Positions 9,594 to 20,954 of a DNA stretch of 41,414 nucleotides are shown here, piece by piece (the stretch's first letter is position 1; the number at the start of each line of letters is the position of its first letter). This DNA is from Kiritimatiellota bacterium. Its GTDB lineage: Bacteria; Verrucomicrobiota; Lentisphaeria; Oligosphaerales; JAADHN01. Location: the NCBI GenBank assembly GCA_013151865.1, contig JAADHN010000156.1:1-41414 (forward strand). The letters run 5' to 3'. Made by a program: the position numbers and the translations under genes. A model generated the notes under the pieces. That model made no database searches, had not been told where the DNA came from, and was given only the letters and a program-made list of their open reading frames with translations.

Positions 9594-11465
9594 TCATCCG
9601 CCGCCCGGTTTGCTCTTCCGACCCGAACTCGCCTCGACCGTTTCTATTGCAGCCCGTCCCCGGGCGCTCTCCCCCCGGTCGCCTCCCGTCGGCGTCGCTC
9701 GAGGCGGGGCGGACGTCCGTTCGATGCCGATAATGGCCACGTCGTCTTGGAGCCCTCCCGCGGGCGCGTTTTCCAGCGCGTGACCCATCAGACGCCGCAG
9801 GATGCGCCGAATTGAATCCGTCCCGAATTCTCGACAGATTCGCTCCAGCGGCGTCAGTCCGAGGAGGTTCCCGTCCGCATCCGTAATGTCGGTCAGACCG
9901 TCGGTGTAGCAGATCAGTTTCCACGCGGGTGGAAATTCGGCATCGAAGTCGGTGAATTCTGCATCCGGGTACACGCCGAGCATCAGGTCGTACGTTTCGA
10001 GAAAGCGAACCGTGCCTTTCGGACCAACGAGAATGGGGGGACAATGCCCTGCGGCGGCGTATCGAAACCGGTTCCTGGCCAAGTCCACGCGTCCGAAAAG
10101 GACTGTGAGATACATCCCGAACCGTTCGAGATCAGGGCATACGATACGGTTGAATGCCTCGAGAAAACGAGCGGGCGAACCGCGGTGGCGGAGGTGAAAC
10201 ACACTGCGAAAAGCCATGTGGGCAATAATGGAAAAGAATGCCGCGGACATCCCCTTGCCCATGGCATCCGCCATCACGAAATCCAGCGTTCGCGGCCCCC
10301 GAACGTGAAACCCGATGTAATCGCCCCCGACCTGCCGGGCGGTCTCGATTTCGGTCTCGACGCGCAATCCCGGGATCTCCGGGAGATCGGTCGGGTACAG
10401 TCGTCGCTGCAGGTTTCGGGCGATTTCAATCTCACGCTGGGCCAATTGGGTCCGCACCACTTGATCGTACAGCCGCTGGTTCTCGAGACCGACGCCGGTT
10501 TGGTCGGCCAAGGCCTGAGCGACTTTGACCTCGCCGGACACGAAGCCGGAGGGTCGGTCGCTCCCCCCCAGCAATAACGTCCCCAAAAGCGTTTCTCGGC
10601 CCTTGATGGGCAGACAAACCACAGGCGTGCCGTCGTCCAAGAAATGCATGGCCTCCAGGCCGGTCCTGGCCACTTTCTGTTCGATGCCGGCCTCGTCGAG
10701 GGACAGGGACGCCGGCGGCGGGGTCTCCGTCCCGTGCGCGGCACGAAGTTCGAGCCCTTTTGCAGTGAGCAGCCTCAGCACACCCCATTTGGCCTGTGCG
10801 CACTCGAGTGTCCGGCTCAGGACGTTTGCAAGCAGTACATCCTCTTCGACCAGGGCACTGACGTCCTGGCTGAGCGTGTAGAACATGTTCAGGCTTTCGT
10901 AGGCCGCAGAAAGCTCCTCGGCCATCTGCCCGACCGTCCACTCGCTGGTCGCGAGTTTCTCGCGTAACGCCGTAACAGCCTCGGGGGAATGATCCCGTTC
11001 GGCGACCGCCCCCGACTCAGCGACGGCCTGATGAAGTTCCTCCGGCAGACGCTTGACCAGTTCCAGACGATTGCGGTCGCCTTGCCGGGTGTGTCGGACC
11101 TCGTCCATGGTACTCCGGATCAAGAACACGCCCCAGCCGCCTTCCGGGACGTCCGCCAGCGAATCCCAGCGCAACGGGGGAGCGCCGACTTCATCGATTT
11201 GGAACGAAATCGGAGCACAATCCTCGATTCGAAAGTAAAGGCAGTCTTTCCGGCGTTGAATGCTCAGCCAGACGGGTTGGTCCGCGGCTCCGCGGTAGGC
11301 ATGTCGCACAATGTTGTTGCACGCCTCGGTGATGGCCAGTTCAACATCGTGGCAGTCGGGATCGGCGAGAAGGCCGGAACAGGCGTTGCGGCAGAAGCAA
11401 GCGGCGCGCCTCACCCCCGCGAGCGTGCTGCGAATGCAAAGGGAACGGATTTCGCCGGGTTCCAT
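9594..11465 (-). CDS. Fused RsbW-like HATPase, GAF and SpoIIE/RsbU PP2C phosphatase protein
   Basis: The 623-residue cytoplasmic protein has three parts. Residues ~10-140 are an RsbW/SpoIIAB-like HATPase with N-box ELAITEACNNIVRHAY and a glycine-rich GGWGVFLIRSTMDEV; the first ATP-site motif (EDCAPISF) is atypical. Residues ~205-345 are a GAF domain (LLTAKGLELRAAHG, VCLPIKGRETLLGTLLLGG), followed by a helical linker (QREIEIARNLQRRLYP). Residues ~375-600 are a SpoIIE-type PP2C phosphatase with VGGDYIGF, MADAMGKGMSAAF, AAAGHCPPIL, YTDGLTD and DDVAII metal-site motifs. It would carry opposing anti-sigma kinase and phosphatase activities on a STAS protein. The obvious candidate is the one at 20640, in the same chemosensory locus. 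The ATG at 11465 has only a weak ribosome binding site. Confidence 0.9.
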   Translation of the reverse strand: MEPGEIRSLCIRSTLAGVRRAACFCRNACSGLLADPDCHDVELAITEACNNIVRHAYRGAADQPVWLSIQRRKDCLYFRIEDCAPISFQIDEVGAPPLRWDSLADVPEGGWGVFLIRSTMDEVRHTRQGDRNRLELVKRLPEELHQAVAESGAVAERDHSPEAVTALREKLATSEWTVGQMAEELSAAYESLNMFYTLSQDVSALVEEDVLLANVLSRTLECAQAKWGVLRLLTAKGLELRAAHGTETPPPASLSLDEAGIEQKVARTGLEAMHFLDDGTPVVCLPIKGRETLLGTLLLGGSDRPSGFVSGEVKVAQALADQTGVGLENQRLYDQVVRTQLAQREIEIARNLQRRLYPTDLPEIPGLRVETEIETARQVGGDYIGFHVRGPRTLDFVMADAMGKGMSAAFFSIIAHMAFRSVFHLRHRGSPARFLEAFNRIVCPDLERFGMYLTVLFGRVDLARNRFRYAAAGHCPPILVGPKGTVRFLETYDLMLGVYPDAEFTDFDAEFPPAWKLICYTDGLTDITDADGNLLGLTPLERICREFGTDSIRRILRRLMGHALENAPAGGLQDDVAIIGIERTSAPPRATPTGGDRGESARGRAAIETVEASSGRKSKPGGG

Positions 11466-11761: not shown

Positions 11762-12337
11762 TCACGTATTCTTACGGGCCCGCAGAAAAAACCGCACCCA
11801 GTCCGCCACGCCCTTCTGTCCCCGGGCATCGTATTTGGCGTTCTGGGTACATGATTCTTTGGCCACTGTCACGATCGGATTATACCGGGCCCTCTTTCCG
11901 TGAACACTCTTCTTTGTGAAGAGCACGCCCCGCTCACCGCTGGAACTCGACAGAACGACAATGGGGATGCCCTGGGGGCGCCCCCGGGCCTCGTAATCTT
12001 TCCGCAGGTTCTCGATGAGATCCCAACCGTCCATCACCGGCATCTCGAGGTCGGTAATGATGACCGACGGATCATTCTCATAGTGCTGACGGATCTGGGC
12101 AAGTTTCTCCAGGGCCTCCTCGCCGTTTTCCGCCTCGTAAATCACGATCTGGTCGTTGACGGAACGAACCAGTTGAACGACGACCTTGCGGACCACCGCA
12201 GAGTCTTCGACCACCAGAACGGTCCGACTCTTGGGATTGCCCTTGCGCTCGAGGTCATCAACCAATTTGTGGTAGGTATTCTCCGCCGCCTTTCTCTCAG
12301 GGTCGCTGGCCCGGTTTTCGGTAGTGCTGTTCGCCAT
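11762..12337 (-). CDS. Stand-alone response regulator receiver protein with atypical C-terminal segment
   Basis: The 191-residue protein has a ~35-residue charged N-terminal extension followed by a CheY-like receiver. Seen are LVVEDSAVVRK with acidic Glu44/Asp45, the phosphoacceptor Asp96 in IITDLEMPVMDGW, and the switch residue Ser130 in VVLSSSS. After Ser130 the usual short helix is replaced by a basic stretch (TKKSVHGKRARYNP). The conserved lysine is probably Lys160 in TVAKESCT, followed by a basic tail with no DNA-binding domain. It is likely the CheY-type output of the adjacent CheA. I chose ATG 12337; an upstream in-frame ATG at 12355 is also possible. It lies 503 bases after cheR and 296 bases before the phosphatase gene, so it may be transcribed separately. 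Confidence 0.85.
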   Translation of the reverse strand: MANSTTENRASDPERKAAENTYHKLVDDLERKGNPKSRTVLVVEDSAVVRKVVVQLVRSVNDQIVIYEAENGEEALEKLAQIRQHYENDPSVIITDLEMPVMDGWDLIENLRKDYEARGRPQGIPIVVLSSSSGERGVLFTKKSVHGKRARYNPIVTVAKESCTQNAKYDARGQKGVADWVRFFLRARKNT

Positions 12338-12840
12338 AATGCTCCATACTCCCATGCTGGCCGGGGCGTCGAGCCGGCGTCCGACCTCGAAAACCGCCCT
12401 CCCGGACTCCCTGCCGGCCGGACACACGTGTACAACCCCGACGAGACCGCCCCTCTGTCTGCGCCCGGCCCCGACGGGACGATGCTCTTTCCACGGCCGT
12501 TTCGAACCGGGGTCCGCGCAAGCACCCGGAGGCGGCGGACTCGACCGCCATCACCACCCCAGCGTGCAGTCCGCAGGGATGCCGGACAATTACGACCCGC
12601 TCCGGGCGCGGACCACAGTCGCGCCACCGGAACGAACCACGGATGGCAGACTGTCGGAAACTGTCCGCCGAGCGACGACGTCGGTCTCTCCGGTAAATTG
12701 GGACCTTCTGCGGGAAGTTTCAAGGCCGGTCGACACCATTTCTTCCGGATGCCCTGTTTTTTTTCGGAAAGTCGACCGCCGGGATTCCCCGTGTCCTCGC
12801 GTTTCCACCACGGAATCCCCGTGTTGGAGGCCGTGCCGGT
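12338..12840. other. Intergenic region between cheR and the receiver gene, 503 bp
   Basis: No supported gene was found. Downstream of the cheR stop the minus strand carries two near-copies of ACACGGGGA.TCC within about 45 bases, the second of which can pair with the first (GGGATTCC and GGAATCCC). Further on are the distant arms GGTCGAC and GTCGACC near 12730-12780, which bracket a T8 run on the plus strand. A TTGAAA hexamer on the minus strand (12718-12723) lacks a good -10. The region could hold a processing site or a weak terminator and promoter. Confidence 0.4.
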
Positions 12841-13695
12841 TCAGATCTCTTTGGGGACGGGCACGTAATAAGTGGTGGCCCCTTCCTGGACCGCCCGAAA
12901 GTCCGGCGTCAGACCGATCAGACTCTCGCTCGCCCCCATGATCAAACACCCCCAAGGCGGCAGCAAACGATGAAACTGTTCCAGAACTTGGGATTTGATG
13001 TCGGTAGGGAAGTAGATGATGACGTTGCGGCAGAAGATAATGTCGAAAGGCCCGATGTAAGTAAACCGCTCGGCGAGGTTGAGTCTGGTGAAGCGAACCA
13101 TGTTGCGAATGGTTTCGTGAATGCGCCACTTGTCGCCGTGCCGCGCGAAATACTTTCGCAGGAAGCTCGCCGGGAGGTAACGGCCCAGGCCGGTCTTGGT
13201 GTACTCCCCGATCCGGGCTTCTTCGAGCACAGGCTCTGCGATGTCGACCCCGACAATGGAAAAATCCTCGGGCCTGAATTTTGTCTGGGTCCGCGTCCAC
13301 TCCTTCACGCAAATCGCGATGGAATAAGGCTCCTGACCGGCACTGCAGCCGCAGGAGAGGATGCGAATCGGCGTGGATTCCTTGCCGCGAGCGGCGTGCT
13401 CGGATGTCACGCCGGGAAGGATCTTTCGCATAAAGACATCAAAGGGGTGCCAATCCCGGAAAAAACTGCTTTCATGCGTCGTCATGGCCTGAATAAGATG
13501 GCGGCGGAGGGCGGCGTCTTTATCAATGGCCAAACGCTTGTAGAGCGCCCCGTAGGAATCGAGGCCTTCGCTGTCCAGGAACTCCCGTAACCGGGTCGTG
13601 AACAGGTAGCGCTTGTGCGGCAGGATGTCGATCCCGCAGTTGTCCCGAAAGTAGTTGCGTAGCAACCTGTATTCCATGTCGCTCAGTTTGATCAC
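12841..13695 (-). CDS. cheR: CheR-type MCP methyltransferase
   Basis: The enzyme methylates glutamates of methyl-accepting chemotaxis proteins using S-adenosylmethionine. The 284-residue product has the N-terminal helical CheR domain (residues ~5-75, ending with MTTHESSFFRDWHPF) and the Rossmann methyltransferase domain. SAM-site motif ILSCGCSAGQEPYS is near residue 110, DIIFCRNVIIYF near 218-229, and GASESLIGL near 250. The start is a GTG at 13695 that overlaps the cheB stop in a GTGA, so translation is probably coupled; ATG seven codons further is an alternative. No TPR domain follows, unlike some alternative-pathway CheR proteins. The substrate is presumably the MCP encoded two genes upstream. 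Confidence 0.95.
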   Translation of the reverse strand: MIKLSDMEYRLLRNYFRDNCGIDILPHKRYLFTTRLREFLDSEGLDSYGALYKRLAIDKDAALRRHLIQAMTTHESSFFRDWHPFDVFMRKILPGVTSEHAARGKESTPIRILSCGCSAGQEPYSIAICVKEWTRTQTKFRPEDFSIVGVDIAEPVLEEARIGEYTKTGLGRYLPASFLRKYFARHGDKWRIHETIRNMVRFTRLNLAERFTYIGPFDIIFCRNVIIYFPTDIKSQVLEQFHRLLPPWGCLIMGASESLIGLTPDFRAVQEGATTYYVPVPKEI

Positions 13696-14822
13696 TTCAC
13701 TCGTCCTACGATTTCCGTGAGCCGTCGTGCAATCTTGCGGAGGGGAAGAACTTCATCCACGGCGCCCTGCTGGACGGCGCTGCCGGGCATCCCCCAGACC
13801 ACTGAAGAATCCCGGTCCTGGGCAAGCGTGACGGCCCCTTTGCTTTTCAGGGCTTTCAGCCCTCGGGTCCCGTCGTTGCCCATTCCCGTCAGAATGGCCG
13901 CCACGACCCGCCGCTTGCACACACGAGCGGCGGAAAGAAAGAGTACGTCGAGGGACGGACGCGGCACGGCGTCCGTTCGCACTTGATCGACGATTCGGAA
14001 ACAGAGTTCTCCTCCCCCGGATGCAGCCAGTTCGGCATCGTGTCCGCCCGGCGCGAGCAGGACTTGACCGGGCTTGAGCGAATCACCGTCCCGTGCCAGG
14101 CGCACGGCGAGTTTCGAAAGCTTATTCAGCGCCGTGGCCATGTATTCCGTAAACAGCGGCGGCATGTGGAGCACGCACACGATCGGGACTGGGAAATTCG
14201 CCGGCAGTTTTTTCAGAATCTCGACCAGGGCCTCCGGGCCGCCCGTCGAACCGCCGATCAGGACCACGTCGAATGTGTGCTCTGCCCGGAGGCGCTCGAC
14301 GTCTGCCGCCACGCGTTCGGGCAAGACGGCATAGATGCCGGACCCCGAATCGTTGCTGCCGGCACCGCCGGCAATTCGAATTTTGGCGAGGCGGCTGTAG
14401 CGCTGTACGGAACAGCAGCGGACCTTTGGCAGGAGGGAAGCGCGCAACCGTCGGCCCAGCGGCTTCTGACGGCACGCCCGGGGCGACTTGGTGATCAGGT
14501 CGAATGCACCGGCCTCGAGCGCCTCGATCGTGCGCCGGGCCACGGCGGGGTTTTCCTGGGCGACCACGATTACCGCAGCCTCCGGCAGGGACGACCGCAG
14601 TTGGATGATGAAATCGGCCGGGGAAATGTCCGGCAGTGATGCGGAAAGGAGCACGACTTCCGGTTTGGTTTGAATCGCCAACTGTAACCCGGTCACGCCA
14701 CGCTGACAGGATCCGCAGATGTGGACGTCGGGCGCACCGGAGAGCGCTTCACGAATAGCGTCTCGACAGAAAATGTCCTCCTCGACAACCAAGATTCGGA
14801 TTTGTTGATACTGTTCTTTCAC
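13692..14822 (-). CDS. cheB: CheB-type methylesterase with degenerate receiver domain
   Basis: The enzyme removes methyl groups from (or deamidates) MCP glutamates. The 376-residue product has the standard order: receiver (~8-120), linker, and C-terminal esterase (~185-370). The esterase catalytic triad is intact: Ser in IGGSTGGPEAL, His in CVLHMPPLFTEYM, and Asp in LTGMGNDGTRGL. The receiver is altered. The phosphoacceptor position is Ser60 (EVVLLSASLPD in place of LLDV.MP), the Thr/Ser switch position is Ala88, and the acidic pair is Glu14/Glu15, while Lys112 (LITKSP) is kept. CheA phosphorylation therefore probably does not gate this enzyme in the usual way. Translation starts at a GTG (14822) preceded by AAGG, 110 bases after the MCP gene, and overlaps cheR. 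Confidence 0.93.
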   Translation of the reverse strand: MKEQYQQIRILVVEEDIFCRDAIREALSGAPDVHICGSCQRGVTGLQLAIQTKPEVVLLSASLPDISPADFIIQLRSSLPEAAVIVVAQENPAVARRTIEALEAGAFDLITKSPRACRQKPLGRRLRASLLPKVRCCSVQRYSRLAKIRIAGGAGSNDSGSGIYAVLPERVAADVERLRAEHTFDVVLIGGSTGGPEALVEILKKLPANFPVPIVCVLHMPPLFTEYMATALNKLSKLAVRLARDGDSLKPGQVLLAPGGHDAELAASGGGELCFRIVDQVRTDAVPRPSLDVLFLSAARVCKRRVVAAILTGMGNDGTRGLKALKSKGAVTLAQDRDSSVVWGMPGSAVQQGAVDEVLPLRKIARRLTEIVGRVK

Positions 14823-14932: not shown

Positions 14933-16495
14933 TCAGTCGCCGTTGTTCTCGCCGACCATGTCCCGAAGCTCATCCGCCGCGTCGCGGACGCGCTCGACGG
15001 TCTGCATCAACTGCTGCAATTGTTCTTTGCCGGCCAAACTGGCGTCCTTGGCGCTGCTGGTCCGACGCTGAGCCTCGGTGACCATATCGGAACTCTCGGC
15101 GAGTTTCCGGGTGAAGTCGGTGACCGACGTTGCGGCCTCGGAAATGTTTCGGGCCACTTCGTTGGCCCCGGTGGCGATCTCGCTGATGACTTTCGAGACT
15201 TGGCCGGTCCCGGCGGCGGATTCGCTGGCACTGCGCGAGACTTGTTCGACGCCTGCCGCTGCTTCGGTCACGTTCCGGCTGATTTCCTGAGTGGCCTGTT
15301 CCTGCTGTTGCACCATGCCGGCAATGGCCTTTTGCAGTTCGTCGAGCTTGTTGATCACCCCGGTAATGTCGTGTATCGCGGCCACGGCCCGGGTCGTCTT
15401 TTGCTGAATGTTCCGGATCCGTTCGGTAATGTCCTCGGTGGCCGAGGCCGTCTGTTTGGCCAGTTCCTTCACTTCGTTGGCGACCACGGCGAATCCCTTG
15501 CCCGCCTCCCCCGCGCTCGCGGCTTCGATGGCCGCATTCAAAGCCAGCAGATTCGTCTGCTGGGCGATTACCTGGATCACGTTCACGACTTTACCGATTT
15601 CCTCGGCGCTGCGCCCGAGTTCGGTCACGATGGCCGTGGTCTCGCCGGCGTCTTTGGCCGCGGTTTCGCCTACCTTCGCCCCCGTTTGCGTGTGCTCGGC
15701 AATCGTGCTGATCGAAGACGCGATGTGTTTCAAAGCGCCGTCGATGGTAGCCAAATTACTGGAGAGTTGTTCCGAAGTCGTGGCCAGCGTCGACATGTTC
15801 ATGCCGACCTGCTCGACCGAGGAAGCCGCTCCGGTAATGTTGGTGGAAATTTCTTCGGCAGCCGTGGCGACCAACGAAATGTTCGACGATAATTGCTCCG
15901 CCGTAACGGCCAAGGAATGAGTGGTCTGATCATAAGCGCCCAAGACATTGAGGGCGCCGTCGACTTCTTTCGCGCTTCCCTCGATCGAGGCGAGCTGCTC
16001 CGTGCACAACTCGAGCTGACGTGCAGTGGTTTCCGCAATCCGGTCGGCCTGGGCGCGCAATCGCTGCAAGACGGCATCCAAACGCGCGGTCTTCTCCACG
16101 AGCTGATTGGCGTGCTCGAGTTCCTCGGCAAGCTCCATCTGTTTGGCCACCGCCTCATTGTAGGCGTCGGTGAGAGCCTGCATGTGTTTCTCGACTGCGC
16201 TGTGCCGCAAGCTGCCGGTACGCGTGTTCCGGTAGAGTAAGCCCAAGGCCAGGACGGCGCACGCGATCCCCGCAATCAGGACAATCCCCTCGATCAGGGT
16301 CGCAATCGGCGGCGGAAGAAACGTCCCCACATACAACAGTCCCATGAACACCATAAGAAGTACGATCAGGGCGCCCATGGCCAATCCCTGTCGGGAAATC
16401 CCCACAGGTCGCAAGAGGATTTCGGGCGCATTCACCGGCGCCACGCTCACCACCTCCCGCTTCATCGGTACCATGCTCTGCGGTTCTTTGTCCAT
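14933..16495 (-). CDS. Methyl-accepting chemotaxis protein without periplasmic sensor domain
   Basis: This 520-residue inner-membrane transducer has two hydrophobic segments (~39-60 and ~64-88) separated by about three residues, so essentially no periplasmic ligand domain exists. No HAMP domain is evident. A long coiled coil (~100-500) carries the conserved hairpin tip near 312-352 ([19 protein letters not shown], then [17 protein letters not shown]), which docks CheW and CheA. The C-terminus ([13 protein letters not shown]) lacks an NWETF-type CheR/CheB tether. The input is likely cytoplasmic, membrane-related, or comes from a partner protein. It lies between cheW (72 bases) and cheB (110 bases), so it is probably the dedicated receptor of this array. 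Confidence 0.93.
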
Positions 16496-16567: not shown

Positions 16568-17041
16568 TCAATTGGTCAGCAGTTCCGCCGCATTCAGCAC
16601 CACCAGCGTGCGCCCCTCCAAGTGGACGACGCCCTGCACGAACCGGGCTGCCTCCCGCTTCAAGTGCGGCGGCGGCGGCGCCACCGAATCGTCTTCCAAC
16701 GTAATGACATCGCCGATCCGATCCACGAGAAATCCCACCGGTTTGTCCCCAAAGACGTTCGAGTCCGCTCCAGACTCGGCAAACCGCGACCGCCGCAACT
16801 CGGCGGCAGTCCGTAAAATGATAATCCGCGAATCCGGCGTGACCTTCCGGGGATCGCGTCCGAACACGACCGCGACGTCCACCACCAACACCACCTCGCC
16901 GCGGATGGTCACCAGACCCCGAACATGCCTCGCGGCCCGCGGAACGGGCGTAATGTCCGTGTTCGCACTGATTTCCTTCACCACGAGCACATCGAGCCCG
17001 TAGAACGTCCCTCCGAGGTCGAATGAGATGAACTGAACCAT
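16568..17041 (-). CDS. cheW: CheW-type adaptor protein
   Basis: This 157-residue cytoplasmic scaffold couples receptor hairpin tips to CheA. It has the typical CheW layout: FISFDLGGTFYGLDVLVVKEI at the N-terminus, VRGLVTIRGEVVLVVDV (the conserved region around the receptor-binding surface), VGFLVDRIGDVITL, and VQGVVHLEGRTLVVLNAAELL near the C-terminus. An insertion of about ten charged residues (ELRRSRFAESGADSNVFGD) precedes the VGFLVD strand. The ATG at 17041 has GAGG 8 bases upstream and lies 10 bases after the cheA stop, so cheA and cheW form a tight transcriptional pair. Confidence 0.95.
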   Translation of the reverse strand: MVQFISFDLGGTFYGLDVLVVKEISANTDITPVPRAARHVRGLVTIRGEVVLVVDVAVVFGRDPRKVTPDSRIIILRTAAELRRSRFAESGADSNVFGDKPVGFLVDRIGDVITLEDDSVAPPPPHLKREAARFVQGVVHLEGRTLVVLNAAELLTN

Positions 17042-17051
17042 ACAACGAACC

Positions 17052-20000
17052 TCAAGACTGTTTTACTGGCGCGGCGACGTCGGGAGAGCAGCATTTCAGG
17101 ACCGCTTCGAGCACTCCCTCGCGGTCCGACTTGCTCTTGCAATCCCAGAATCCGGCGTCCAGCGCCGCTTCCCGCACCCCGGCGCGGAGGCCGGTAACCG
17201 CCAGCAGAGGCAAGGACGCGAATCGGCGGTCTCTGGCCAGGGCGTGCGCCAATTCCAACCCGTCCATTCGGGGCATCTCCAAGTCGCTGATTACCAGGTC
17301 GAACGCCTTCTGCCGAATAGCGTGGAGCGCTTCGCGTCCGTCCGACGCAAACTCGATCTCCAAGCCTGTTCCGCTGAGGTAAGAGGCCAAAAGCAAACGG
17401 GAAAACGGGGAGTCGTCTGCTATGAGAATGCGCTTGCCGGCCAGCCCCTCCTCGATCGGCAGCCAGCCCGGATAGACCGTCTCGATGATCCCATACACAT
17501 CGAGCATAAGCGAAAGGCGGCCGTCAATCAACTGCGATCCGGTAATGCCGGGTCGTTTCATGGCCTGCAAATCCGCCTGAGGCGGCATCTCCACGTTGTC
17601 GATGATCCGGGACGCCAGGATGCCGAAGGGACGGCTGGACTTGGGGATGATGGCGTAGAGGGCGCCGTCCGGATATCGCGGTGCAAGCCCCTGGACAATC
17701 TCTTCGAGGCGGATCAGAGGGATCGGGGCGCCCCGGAATTCGAGGTACTCACGGCCGTTGGCGGTCTGGATGCGGTCGACCGGGACTTCCTCGACACGGA
17801 TGATCAGACACAGCGGAATGGCAAAGAGTTCCTGCGTCCCGACGTCGAACAGCAGGATCGTCCGCGGTTCCAATGTCGGGCTGCGCTGGCCCACGACGGT
17901 TTCCTGCCCCTCGGCGAAACGAAGAGCGCTGAGTTGGGCGATGGCCGCAACGTCCACAATCAGAGCAATCCGCCCGTCTCCGAGCACAGTGGCCCCGGCA
18001 AACGCGTCGCAATCCTTGATCTGGTGGTGCAGCCCCTTGACGACGATCTCCTCGGTATCGACGATTTCATTCACCAGCAATCCGAATTGTTCGGCTCCGG
18101 CCCGCACGACCACGATATGAACATCCTGCTGCTCCGTCGGTCCAGCCTGCTCGGCGACAACATCCCCTTGCTCCGTGCGTTGCGCCTTGGGGAGAAGGGC
18201 GGTAACCGGCGGTCCCTCATCTTCTTCCTCGGCTTCTTCCCCAAAACTCGATTCCAGGACGTTCTCCAGCCGCACGATGGGCAGCAACTGCCCGCGCAGC
18301 CAGTACACTTCCTGGCGGTCCACTTTCTGAATCGCGTCCGCAACCGTGGGGCCCTGCAGCCAGACCACTTCCTTGATCTTGGTCTGGGGGATCGCCAGGC
18401 AGGCGTCGCCGGCTCGGACAATGAGCGCCGGGATGATCGCCAGAGTGAGGGGCAGACGAACGGTAACCGTGGTGCCGCGGCCGGGGGTGGAGGTGATTTC
18501 CGCGCTGCCGCCGATCCGCTGAATGCAGGCCTTCACCACGTCCATCCCCACGCCGCGGCCGGATAGGTCGGTAACGACTTCGGACGTCGAGAACCCCGGC
18601 TCGAACACCAGGGAGAAGGCCTCGCGCTCACTCAGCTCGGCCGCTTCCTGCTCCGTGAGCATCCCCTTGCGCACCGCAGCCTTCCGCAACTCGTCAGCGT
18701 CCATGCCGCGACCGTCGTCCGAAACCTCGATATGCACTTGGTCACCCCGATGCGACGCTTTGATTCGGAGCCGTCCTGTCGGCCGCTTGTCTTTGGCGAT
18801 CCTCTCCTCGGGACTTTCGATACCGTGGTCGGCCGCGTTCCTTACAAGATGCAAGAGGGGGTCCGCAATGGCCTCGAGAATGTTCTTGTCCAGTTCCACC
18901 TCACCCCCGCTGAAAACAGGTTCGATTTTCTTGCCGAGTTGTCGTCCCAGGTCGTGGATCACCCGCTTGAACCGCGCAAATACCGTACTGACCGGCCGCA
19001 TCCGCGTCTGCATGATCGTGGCCTGCAGGTCGCTGGTCACCACGTTCAGACGCTGACTGATCGAACGGAGTTCGGCGATGTCTTTTGCCTGCACCGCCTG
19101 GATGTTCTGGTTCCGCACAAGGACCAGCTCCGTGGCCAGATTCATCAGACGGTCCAGCAACGTGATGGGAATCCGGATGGATTGGGCCTGGGCATCCCCG
19201 CCGGCCTGGACAGGAGCTTCGACAGCGGACGCCGGCGCTTTTGACGGTACCGGCGTTTGTACTTCCCCGGGAACGTCGGCCGGCGGCGAAGCGGACGGCG
19301 AACTCGACTCAGACGCGGGCGGTCCGGAAGAAACTTCCCCCGGTCCGGCCCGGACGGAACGCTTCTCAGTGAGTTCTTTCAGTTTCGCCAGTTCGTCCGA
19401 AATGGGGATCTCGTCGTCTTCCGGGCTGAACAGCAACATCCGCAACGCGTCCAACCCCGCATAGGCCGCGCCCAGAACCTCATCGTCCACGGGCGACTGT
19501 CCGTCGCGCACCAACTCGGCCAACCCGGCCAGGGCTGCAGCCAAATCAGCAATTCGGGTCAGGCCGCACTTTTGTGCCCCCGTTACCATATTCTTCAGGA
19601 TCGCCGCGAGTTCCCCTGCCGCGCTTTGAACGTCGGCGCCCTTGGCCTCTTCGAGCGTGGAGAGCGCGTCGGCCGCCGCCATGACCTGCTCATTGGCGTC
19701 CCCGAGAAAATCGCGCAGCGTGTCGGCGTCCGTCGACGAAGCCTCGTCCGCCGCCGTGGCCTCTTCCTGCCCTTGGTCCCCTGCGCCGAGCACGGCCTCG
19801 AGCCGTTGAAGTTCGTCGCTGATGTCCACCGAGTCGTTTTGCAAGTCCGCGAGGAACGTCCTGAGTCTGTCGATTCCCCGCAAGAGAGGATCACTGACCT
19901 CCGCTCCGGGCTGGAGCTTGCCGGCCCGCAACGACCCGACCACGTCTTCCATGGCGTGGCCGAGCCGGGCAAACGTCGTGAACCCCAGCAGTCCCGCCCC

Positions 20001-20159
20001 CCCCTTCACCGTGTGAAGGGCCCGAAACAGCCGGTCGATCAGCGCAGGGTCCGCGCCCGCACCGGACTCTTCCAGCGCGAGGACGTCCTCCTCGGCGGTC
20101 GTCAGCAACTCGGTTGCTTCCGCCACGAATTGATCGATGAGTTCTGGGTCGGTTTCCAT
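17052..20159 (-). CDS. cheA: Hybrid CheA histidine kinase with extra Hpt-like, double CheW and receiver domains
   Basis: This 1035-residue kinase is much longer than classical CheA (~650). Domains in order: an Hpt domain with phosphorylatable His49 in FRALHTVKGGAGLLGF; an acidic linker; an Hpt-like repeat (~146-265, LTRIADLAAALAGL) in which the His position is Lys; a Pro/Ser-rich linker; the P3 dimerisation helices (~325-385, RIPITLLDRLMNLATELVLV); an HATPase with NAADHGIE, DDGRGMD and GRGVGMDVV; a CheW-like domain (~577-743) with an acidic insertion; a second CheW-like domain (~763-890); and a receiver (~908-1030) with ADDS, phosphoacceptor Asp near 958 in VISDLEMPRMDG, and a later Lys. No P2 CheY-binding domain is evident. 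The ATG at 20159 has GGTGG 8 bases upstream. A strong promoter lies ~450 bases upstream. Confidence 0.95.
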   Translation of the reverse strand: METDPELIDQFVAEATELLTTAEEDVLALEESGAGADPALIDRLFRALHTVKGGAGLLGFTTFARLGHAMEDVVGSLRAGKLQPGAEVSDPLLRGIDRLRTFLADLQNDSVDISDELQRLEAVLGAGDQGQEEATAADEASSTDADTLRDFLGDANEQVMAAADALSTLEEAKGADVQSAAGELAAILKNMVTGAQKCGLTRIADLAAALAGLAELVRDGQSPVDDEVLGAAYAGLDALRMLLFSPEDDEIPISDELAKLKELTEKRSVRAGPGEVSSGPPASESSSPSASPPADVPGEVQTPVPSKAPASAVEAPVQAGGDAQAQSIRIPITLLDRLMNLATELVLVRNQNIQAVQAKDIAELRSISQRLNVVTSDLQATIMQTRMRPVSTVFARFKRVIHDLGRQLGKKIEPVFSGGEVELDKNILEAIADPLLHLVRNAADHGIESPEERIAKDKRPTGRLRIKASHRGDQVHIEVSDDGRGMDADELRKAAVRKGMLTEQEAAELSEREAFSLVFEPGFSTSEVVTDLSGRGVGMDVVKACIQRIGGSAEITSTPGRGTTVTVRLPLTLAIIPALIVRAGDACLAIPQTKIKEVVWLQGPTVADAIQKVDRQEVYWLRGQLLPIVRLENVLESSFGEEAEEEDEGPPVTALLPKAQRTEQGDVVAEQAGPTEQQDVHIVVVRAGAEQFGLLVNEIVDTEEIVVKGLHHQIKDCDAFAGATVLGDGRIALIVDVAAIAQLSALRFAEGQETVVGQRSPTLEPRTILLFDVGTQELFAIPLCLIIRVEEVPVDRIQTANGREYLEFRGAPIPLIRLEEIVQGLAPRYPDGALYAIIPKSSRPFGILASRIIDNVEMPPQADLQAMKRPGITGSQLIDGRLSLMLDVYGIIETVYPGWLPIEEGLAGKRILIADDSPFSRLLLASYLSGTGLEIEFASDGREALHAIRQKAFDLVISDLEMPRMDGLELAHALARDRRFASLPLLAVTGLRAGVREAALDAGFWDCKSKSDREGVLEAVLKCCSPDVAAPVKQS

Positions 20160-20639: not shown

Positions 20640-20643
20640 TCAA
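20615..20643 (-). promoter_or_regulatory. Sigma70-type promoter of the cheA operon
   Basis: On the minus strand, TTGACG (20643-20638) and TATAAG (20620-20615) are separated by exactly 17 bases, with one and one mismatch to consensus at the most conserved positions. The -35 hexamer overlaps the STAS stop codon. The predicted transcript starts near 20608 and reads into cheA. Confidence 0.6.
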
Positions 20644-20954
20644 ATCGCTCCACGCGCCTGCTCCACGGTCTCGAAGATGTCGAAAAGCCGGTAGAGGCGC
20701 GTCAATTCGAAAATCTGCCGAACCTGCGGGGTGAGCCCGGCAAGAGCCAGCGGCGTTTCCCGCTGAGAGGCACTCTTGAGCAGGTTGACCAACGTCCCCA
20801 GCCCGACACTGTCCACGAATCTCGTCCGCGAGAAATCCAAGACGATCCCCACTGCTTCATCCAACGCTGCCTGAATCTCGACTTTCAGCGCGTCCACGCT
20901 GGCGGAATCAAGGCGCTCCGGCACAGTGACTACCCGCGTGTTTTCTCGATCCAT
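20640..20954 (-). CDS. STAS-domain anti-sigma-factor antagonist (SpoIIAA/RsbV type)
   Basis: The 104-residue single-domain STAS protein is the switch component of partner-switching systems: unphosphorylated, it binds an RsbW-like kinase and frees that kinase's other partner. The conserved loop reads TRFVDSVGLGTLVNLL, with Ser49 at the phosphorylation site found in DS[ST]GLG of SpoIIAA and RsbV. The ATG at 20954 has GGAGG about 10 bases upstream. Its expected kinase and phosphatase are both domains of the protein encoded at 9594, at the far end of the same gene cluster. Its position just upstream of cheA suggests it is part of the chemosensory pathway. No sigma factor gene is in view. Confidence 0.93.
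   Translation of the reverse strand: MDRENTRVVTVPERLDSASVDALKVEIQAALDEAVGIVLDFSRTRFVDSVGLGTLVNLLKSASQRETPLALAGLTPQVRQIFELTRLYRLFDIFETVEQARGAI

Follow-up and report, generated by a model that had tools for sequence, protein, structure and literature searches.

The locus studied here raises the question of how a chemosensory system adapts when the receiver of its methylesterase CheB has lost the aspartate that takes phosphate from CheA. The locus lies on a stretch of 41,414 nucleotides from a Kiritimatiellota bacterium (assembly GCA_013151865.1, contig JAADHN010000156.1), referred to as the window. The role of phosphorylation feedback on CheB has been described as a long-standing question, for which PMC5809149 gives mainly noise reduction as the answer in Escherichia coli. 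A natural lineage that dropped this feedback and kept CheR, CheB, MCP, and CheA allows one to ask when the feedback is dispensable and what, if anything, took its place.

Phosphorylation pocket of the window CheB

The cheB gene (13692..14822, minus strand, GTG start) encodes a protein of 376 amino acids composed of a pseudo-receiver and a methylesterase, and its neighbors cheR, MCP, cheW, and cheA are those of a genuine cheB. The methylesterase domain (13719..14264, minus strand) was matched by Pfam as CheB_methylest (PF01339, residues 187-368, 206.7 bits), and its triad Ser192-His219-Asp317 is complete as read from the sequence. The N-terminal receiver-like domain (residues 8-113; 14484..14801, minus strand) matched PF00072 over residues 10-113 with 41.1 bits at a cut-off of 30.2.

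Within this domain, four of the five pocket residues are changed. Ser60 (TCC, 14643..14645, minus strand) occupies the phosphoacceptor position and faces the aspartate of 'LDVEMP' in Salmonella CheB (PDB 1a2o; phmmer alignment), Ala88 (GCC, 14559..14561, minus strand) stands at the Thr/Ser switch position, and Glu14-Glu15 (both GAG, 14778..14783, minus strand) replaces the Asp pair. Only Lys112 (AAG, 14487..14489, minus strand) is unchanged. The residues were read from the codons and, for Ser60, Ala88, and Lys112, also from the alignment columns. Leu109 is found at position K-3 and Pro68 at D+8. The acceptor Asp and the Thr/Ser switch that define a classical phosphorylation-activated CheB are thus missing, and the domain is recognized as a receiver without the key phosphotransfer residues, as are aspartate-less receivers or pseudo-receivers. 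The residues listed in the earlier note, including the intact triad, were all confirmed by the codons and, for Ser60, by alignment to 1a2o. Its reading that phospho-control is lost is supported by this pocket and by the closest CheB, which also lacks the Asp. On balance, the sequence favors a catalytically competent methylesterase whose receiver has turned into a pseudo-receiver. A point against it is that Glu14, Glu15, and Lys112 may yet bind a metal or an acidic ligand.

The genome (97% complete) is a draft of 176 contigs, and its draft state leaves room for a sequencing or assembly error as the origin of Ser60. The chance of this is negligible. Asp to Ser takes two base changes in codon 60, more than a single wrong base can account for, several further pocket residues are altered, the open frame is intact, and relatives share the loss, the sister gene carrying Ala.

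Acceptor residues in other CheBs

For the first CheB set, the 135 matches (of 275) that span both domains were kept and one was added by hand, giving 124 sequences after removal of duplicates, plus the window CheB. The 140 partial open reading frames excluded were receiver-only proteins, receiver-less CheB fusions, and fragments, and they include the hand-added row. A second search added loci from the phylum of genome G453 and brought the set to 144 distinct rows, 138 of which fall outside the clade of the window CheB described below. At the acceptor position, the first set (n = 125) had 122 Asp, 2 Ala, and 1 Ser, and the enlarged set (n = 144) had 138 Asp, 2 Ala, 2 Gln, 1 Ser, and 1 Glu.

Outside the clade, the acceptor Asp was present in 137 of 138 CheBs; because the sample was collected by similarity to the window CheB and is no census, the single exception in 138 gives no frequency for CheBs at large. 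The remaining columns had D at the Asp-pair positions in 134/138 and 135/138, S or T at the switch position in 132/138, K at the Lys position in 134/138, F or Y at K-3 in 112/138 (Leu in the window), and Gly at D+8 in 137/138.

The exception outside the clade is the CheB of G016:C129 (locus L151, 9666-10766), which carries Ala in place of the Asp and lacks the Lys; its neighbors are a receiver-bearing CheA and a two-receiver hybrid kinase. It was considered as a clade member and rejected, being unrelated to the clade; with 32% identity and another type of cluster, in which the CheA has one CheW stretch and the hybrid kinase is adjacent, it is taken as an independent loss.

Relatives of the window CheB

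Among 47 genomes of the order, the closest CheB was that of G003:C225 (locus L148), 44% identical with 290 bits, and across the 197 genomes of the class no CheB exceeded 191 bits except those of the window and G003. The best named relative, L031, comes from a Chitinispirillaceae MAG of the Fibrobacterota. When 167 genomes of this phylum were searched, three further members, G496, G475, and G485, came to light. The six CheBs appear to be divided between two phyla, with the window genome and G003 set apart from the other four.

The acceptor residues of the six are S (window), A (G003), D (L031), E, Q, and Q, so that the Asp is missing in five. In L031, the sole member that has it, the second acidic residue is replaced by Thr and the switch residue (Thr/Ser in other CheBs) by Val. 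The pocket Lys is also missing in three members, and in those three Pfam finds no receiver. The Gly at D+8 is missing in all six, a loss reported as a pseudo-receiver trait (PMC12632262, section 7).

The earlier note had named a conserved Ser, or another residue than Asp, in the closest orthologues as support for a rewired class. The second part held for the G003 CheB with its Ala; a conserved Ser was rejected, given the variety of residues in the clade. An acceptor Asp elsewhere in the alignment, which would have spoken against the loss, was also looked for and rejected, since none near the pocket is common to the clade: no other Asp falls in the acceptor column, and Asp16 and Asp65 are present in just three of the six members. 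The same residues bear on the proposal of a Ser/Thr kinase acting on Ser60, or of another Asp as the acceptor. A receiver-Ser/Thr kinase gene near the G003 cluster is in its favor, but with Ala at the site in G003, no Ser in the other members, and no shared alternative Asp, the proposal is highly improbable.

In a tree of CheA, CheR, and MCP, from which CheB was excluded, the six loci formed one group with 100/100 support, and the window paired with G003 (99/99); another concatenated tree gave this pair 95/96. The esterase-only tree (139 rows), which omits the five long-branch rows L020, L114, L117, L021, and L143, also placed the six in one group, not starred, with an SH-aLRT of 89. The position of L031 inside the six had a support of 62/46 in the CheA, CheR, and MCP tree; the order of the window, G003, and L031 was unresolved in the CheR and esterase single-gene trees, and the AU test gave no rejection of the alternative. 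By these alignments and trees, CheBs with a defunct receiver do form a class and amount to more than one odd gene, and it is simplest to assume that the pseudo-receiver state is of long standing within the clade.

Receiver divergence and a conserved helix

Within the clade (n = 6), residues 128-147 had a mean pairwise identity of 0.63, compared to 0.53 for the esterase, 0.30 for the receiver (residues 8-120), and 0.17 for the linker after that segment (residues 148-185). As a control, 3,008 pairs of nonclade CheBs with an esterase identity of 0.45-0.56 were used, in which the receiver averaged 0.446 (SD 0.063) and segment 128-147 averaged 0.21 (99th percentile 0.47). For the receiver, 12 of the 15 clade pairs, which are not independent of each other, lay below the 5th percentile of the control pairs, and for segment 128-147 all 15 of these nonindependent pairs lay above the 99th percentile. 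Against such a decay, the receivers of the window and G003 are still 37-38% identical, inside the ordinary range of pairs.

The clade-specific conserved segment comprises residues 130-147 (LLPKVRCCSVQRYSRLAK; 14382..14435, minus strand) and lies within a predicted helix spanning residues 121-152. The motif K[IV]RxxS[IV]xxYSxxA, located after the receiver core, occurs in 6/6 clade members and 0/138 other CheBs, though it was derived from the same six proteins. Cys136 (14415..14417, minus strand) is shared by five of the six members and by none of the 138 others; L031 has Tyr in this column. The net charge of the motif segment is +4 to +6 in the six, compared to a mean of 3.5 in other CheBs. An amphipathic membrane helix was considered for the motif and found unsupported, with hydrophobic moments of 0.17-0.30 in the six compared to a mean of 0.26 (SD 0.12) in 129 other CheBs. 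The clade offers a clean set in which the phosphorylation residues decay and one helix is newly conserved, and it thereby names the residues to mutate.

Loss of the phospho-pocket together with the gain of a conserved helix points to a regulation that has changed and is not absent. The fast decay of the receiver would also be expected of a dispensable CheB, for which FrzG (PMC4546325) is a precedent. This is distinctly unlikely for a single-copy gene in an intact che cluster, whose triad and esterase core are conserved over the clade at the mean identity given above.

It is possible, and we put it forward tentatively, that another signal replaces phosphate, the pseudo-receiver and helix 121-152 acting as a binding or redox switch, with a partner or the Cys136 state determining CheB activity. 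Such a switch would fit a segment 130-147 that is far more conserved than in other CheBs beside a decayed receiver core, as well as the restriction of the motif and of Cys136 to the clade. There is also a precedent in RitR, an aspartate-less receiver switched by a redox cysteine in a structured linker helix (PMC5965902), and HdrA, FlpD (MvhD-type), and [NiFe] hydrogenase genes are neighbors of two among the six clusters. Against it, the partner is hypothetical, L031 would have to do without the cysteine, the motif was counted in the proteins that defined it, and no hydrogenase genes are among the window open reading frames scanned. The most far-reaching idea is a CheB class whose phospho-switch gave way to a different input at the alpha5 end and the linker helix, where the motif and the largely conserved Cys136 lie; read from sequence, this is something of a long shot. 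In one bold form of it, modeled on the RitR linker cysteine and on the two clusters with HdrA, MvhD-type, and [NiFe] hydrogenase genes, the methylesterase would be gated by redox state or by a partner through the helix and would couple receptor adaptation to electron flow.

Predicted structure

An AlphaFold2 model of the window CheB, built from 62 aligned sequences, reached a pLDDT of 91.4 and a pTM of 0.88 and placed the motif on the single long helix 121-152. Over both domains, the model superimposed on 6ymz with a Z score of 43.3 (1.9 Å, 326 residues) and on 1a2o with a Z score of 41.4 (2.6 Å, 329 residues), the latter being, as we assume, the unphosphorylated form of CheB with the esterase covered. 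The two structures were likewise the top entries in Foldseek. The title of 1a2o reads 'structural basis for methylesterase CheB regulation by a phosphorylation-activated domain'. With mostly normal CheBs in its alignment, AlphaFold would favor the known closed arrangement anyway, and because the predictor may merely reproduce that arrangement, the model backs a folded receiver more than a docked one. For some clade members, the docked cap may fail, given the three in which Pfam finds no receiver.

The predicted packing, the same as in full-length crystal structures, and the retention of a full-length receiver speak against a constitutively active CheB, in which a switchless receiver leaves the esterase uncovered. 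The unconserved linker 148-185 would suit constitutive activity, as would CheBc, the isolated E. coli catalytic domain, which is treated as a feedback-free high-rate form in PMC5809149. We regard constitutive activity as doubtful.

Gene cluster and genome context

The che genes and their flanking genes lie on the same (minus) strand in the order STAS, CheA, CheW, MCP, CheB, CheR, CheY-like, and HATPase/GAF/SpoIIE protein. A STAS-domain protein (20640..20954, domain match) is encoded upstream of a hybrid cheA (17052..20159) with Hpt (H49), dimerization, and HATPase domains, two CheW stretches, and a C-terminal receiver. These are followed by cheW (16568..17041, Pfam-type domain match), the MCP gene (14933..16495), cheB, and cheR (12841..13695), the GTG start of which overlaps the cheB stop by 4 bases. 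Such overlaps are common, and this one may steady the CheR:CheB ratio. Farther downstream are a CheY-like single receiver (11762..12427, domain match and sequence reading) and a HATPase_c_2/GAF/SpoIIE phosphatase protein (9594..11465, domain match), a possible output. Sequence reading showed that the Asp is kept in both the CheY-like protein and the CheA receiver. A frameshift in the CheY-like gene, suspected from a Pfam match ending at 80/111, was set aside, since the alignment with the G003 relative extends over 198 residues (46%) and the C-terminal layout of the two agrees. The position of the SpoIIE phosphatase, the CheY-like receiver, and the STAS protein, flanking the che genes on the same strand, presents a possible wiring to partner switching.

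One CheB and one MCP were found in the genome, so that redundancy is no easy excuse for the altered pocket, and no match to CheD was found there. The E/Q methylation sites of the MCP come near the consensus, with one mismatch in ten, and are spaced by multiples of 14 residues, as in G003 and L031. Its two hydrophobic segments, read by eye, have almost no residues between them, which leaves no periplasmic sensor domain.

Neither Flg_bb_rod nor FHIPEP was matched in the genome, each of these models matching in 4 of 14 control genomes, and the che system therefore serves a cell without a detectable flagellum. Seven PilT-family matches exceeded the cut-off. Type IV pilus genes without a flagellum agree with a Tfp-class (Pil-Chp type) genome; CheAs of that class have multiple Hpt domains and a C-terminal receiver. 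The window CheA combines a single HxxKG Hpt with two CheW stretches and a receiver, and two-CheW CheAs are assigned mostly to class F5 (PMC10782961). The output of the system is perhaps the pili, or gene expression via the SpoIIE/STAS pair. The G003 CheA (L148, 12297-15419) has two HxxKG Hpt sites, H49 and H197, of which the window CheA retains only the first.

The clusters of the relatives differ in their surroundings. In L148 (G003:C225, 3243-8114), HdrA-like, FlpD (MvhD-type), Oxidored_q6, and [NiFe] hydrogenase large-subunit genes lie in or beside the che cluster, with HdrA-like, FlpD (MvhD-type), and small- and large-subunit [NiFe] hydrogenase genes between cheR and cheY. A similar HdrA-like/FlpD/Oxidored_q6/[NiFe] set follows cheR on the same strand in L180 (G475:C191, 904-6286), and G003 and G475 are distant genomes. 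Among the open reading frames scanned around the window, L031, and G496 clusters, no hydrogenase genes were found. A gene for a receiver and Ser/Thr kinase protein with a part weakly resembling CheX (L148, 16027-17967) adjoins the G003 che cluster, and in G475 a receiver fused to a dehydroquinate-synthase-like domain (L180, 6273-7898) comes directly after cheR.

Proposed course of adaptation

It seems fairly probable that demethylation is uncoupled from CheA phosphorylation and that the receiver of CheB serves as a docked pseudo-receiver. CheA would hand its phosphate on to its own receiver and the CheY-like protein and not to CheB. The receiver-like domain would still fold and would cover the esterase in a docked position similar to that in CheB without phosphate, leaving CheB to work at a set rate. 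The MCP would be reset by activity-dependent demethylation against CheR, of the Barkai-Leibler type and without phospho-feedback, and what remains of N-terminal regulation would have shifted to the conserved segment 130-147.

Adaptation in this bacterium thus probably runs without the usual phosphorylation feedback. The conclusion of the earlier note that adaptation must work differently is too strong, because E. coli strains with CheB-D56E or CheBc are capable of precise adaptation through activity-dependent feedback, and phosphorylation feedback there mainly narrows cell-to-cell variability (PMC5809149). Since precise adaptation survives without the phosphorylation loop in E. coli, the differences to be expected are in noise and recovery kinetics.

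Comparison with known systems

CheBs with pseudo-receivers already have precedents in FrzG and, probably, ChpB. Among open-licence PMC papers, no published description of the six-member clade was found, and CheB is not mentioned in the main texts of two pseudo-receiver surveys (PMC4395418 and PMC12632262), although the window CheB shares with the aspartate-less receivers and pseudo-receivers (ALR, PsR) a PF00072 receiver without D.

FrzG of the Myxococcus xanthus Frz system, which governs surface motility, is likewise a CheB homolog with a degenerate receiver, accompanied by a hybrid CheA, an MCP, and a CheR. According to PMC4546325, its receiver is largely degenerate in Myxococcaceae and Cystobacteraceae and was recently lost, which suggested important changes in adaptation; in PMC3945109, FrzG (334 aa) is listed without a receiver. 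The likeness is by description, and in contrast to FrzG, the window CheB matches the receiver model, keeps Lys112, and belongs to a clade with the 130-147 motif.

ChpB (CheB4) of the Pseudomonas aeruginosa Pil-Chp system resembles the window CheB, by description, as a pilus-system CheB whose partner CheA ends in a receiver. It 'is not thought to be phosphorylated' in a legend of a 2025 review (PMC12632253), whereas phosphorylation of ChpB by ChpA is reported in PMC5812489.

The F3-class CheB of Campylobacterota also lacks phospho-control beside a receiver-bearing CheA; it has no receiver domain (PMC9321776), whereas the window CheB retains a receiver-like one. CheB-D56E and CheBc of E. coli are a further parallel in that the esterase is active without phosphorylation feedback (PMC5809149). 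These are engineered mutants, whereas the loss in the window CheB is natural and common to its clade.
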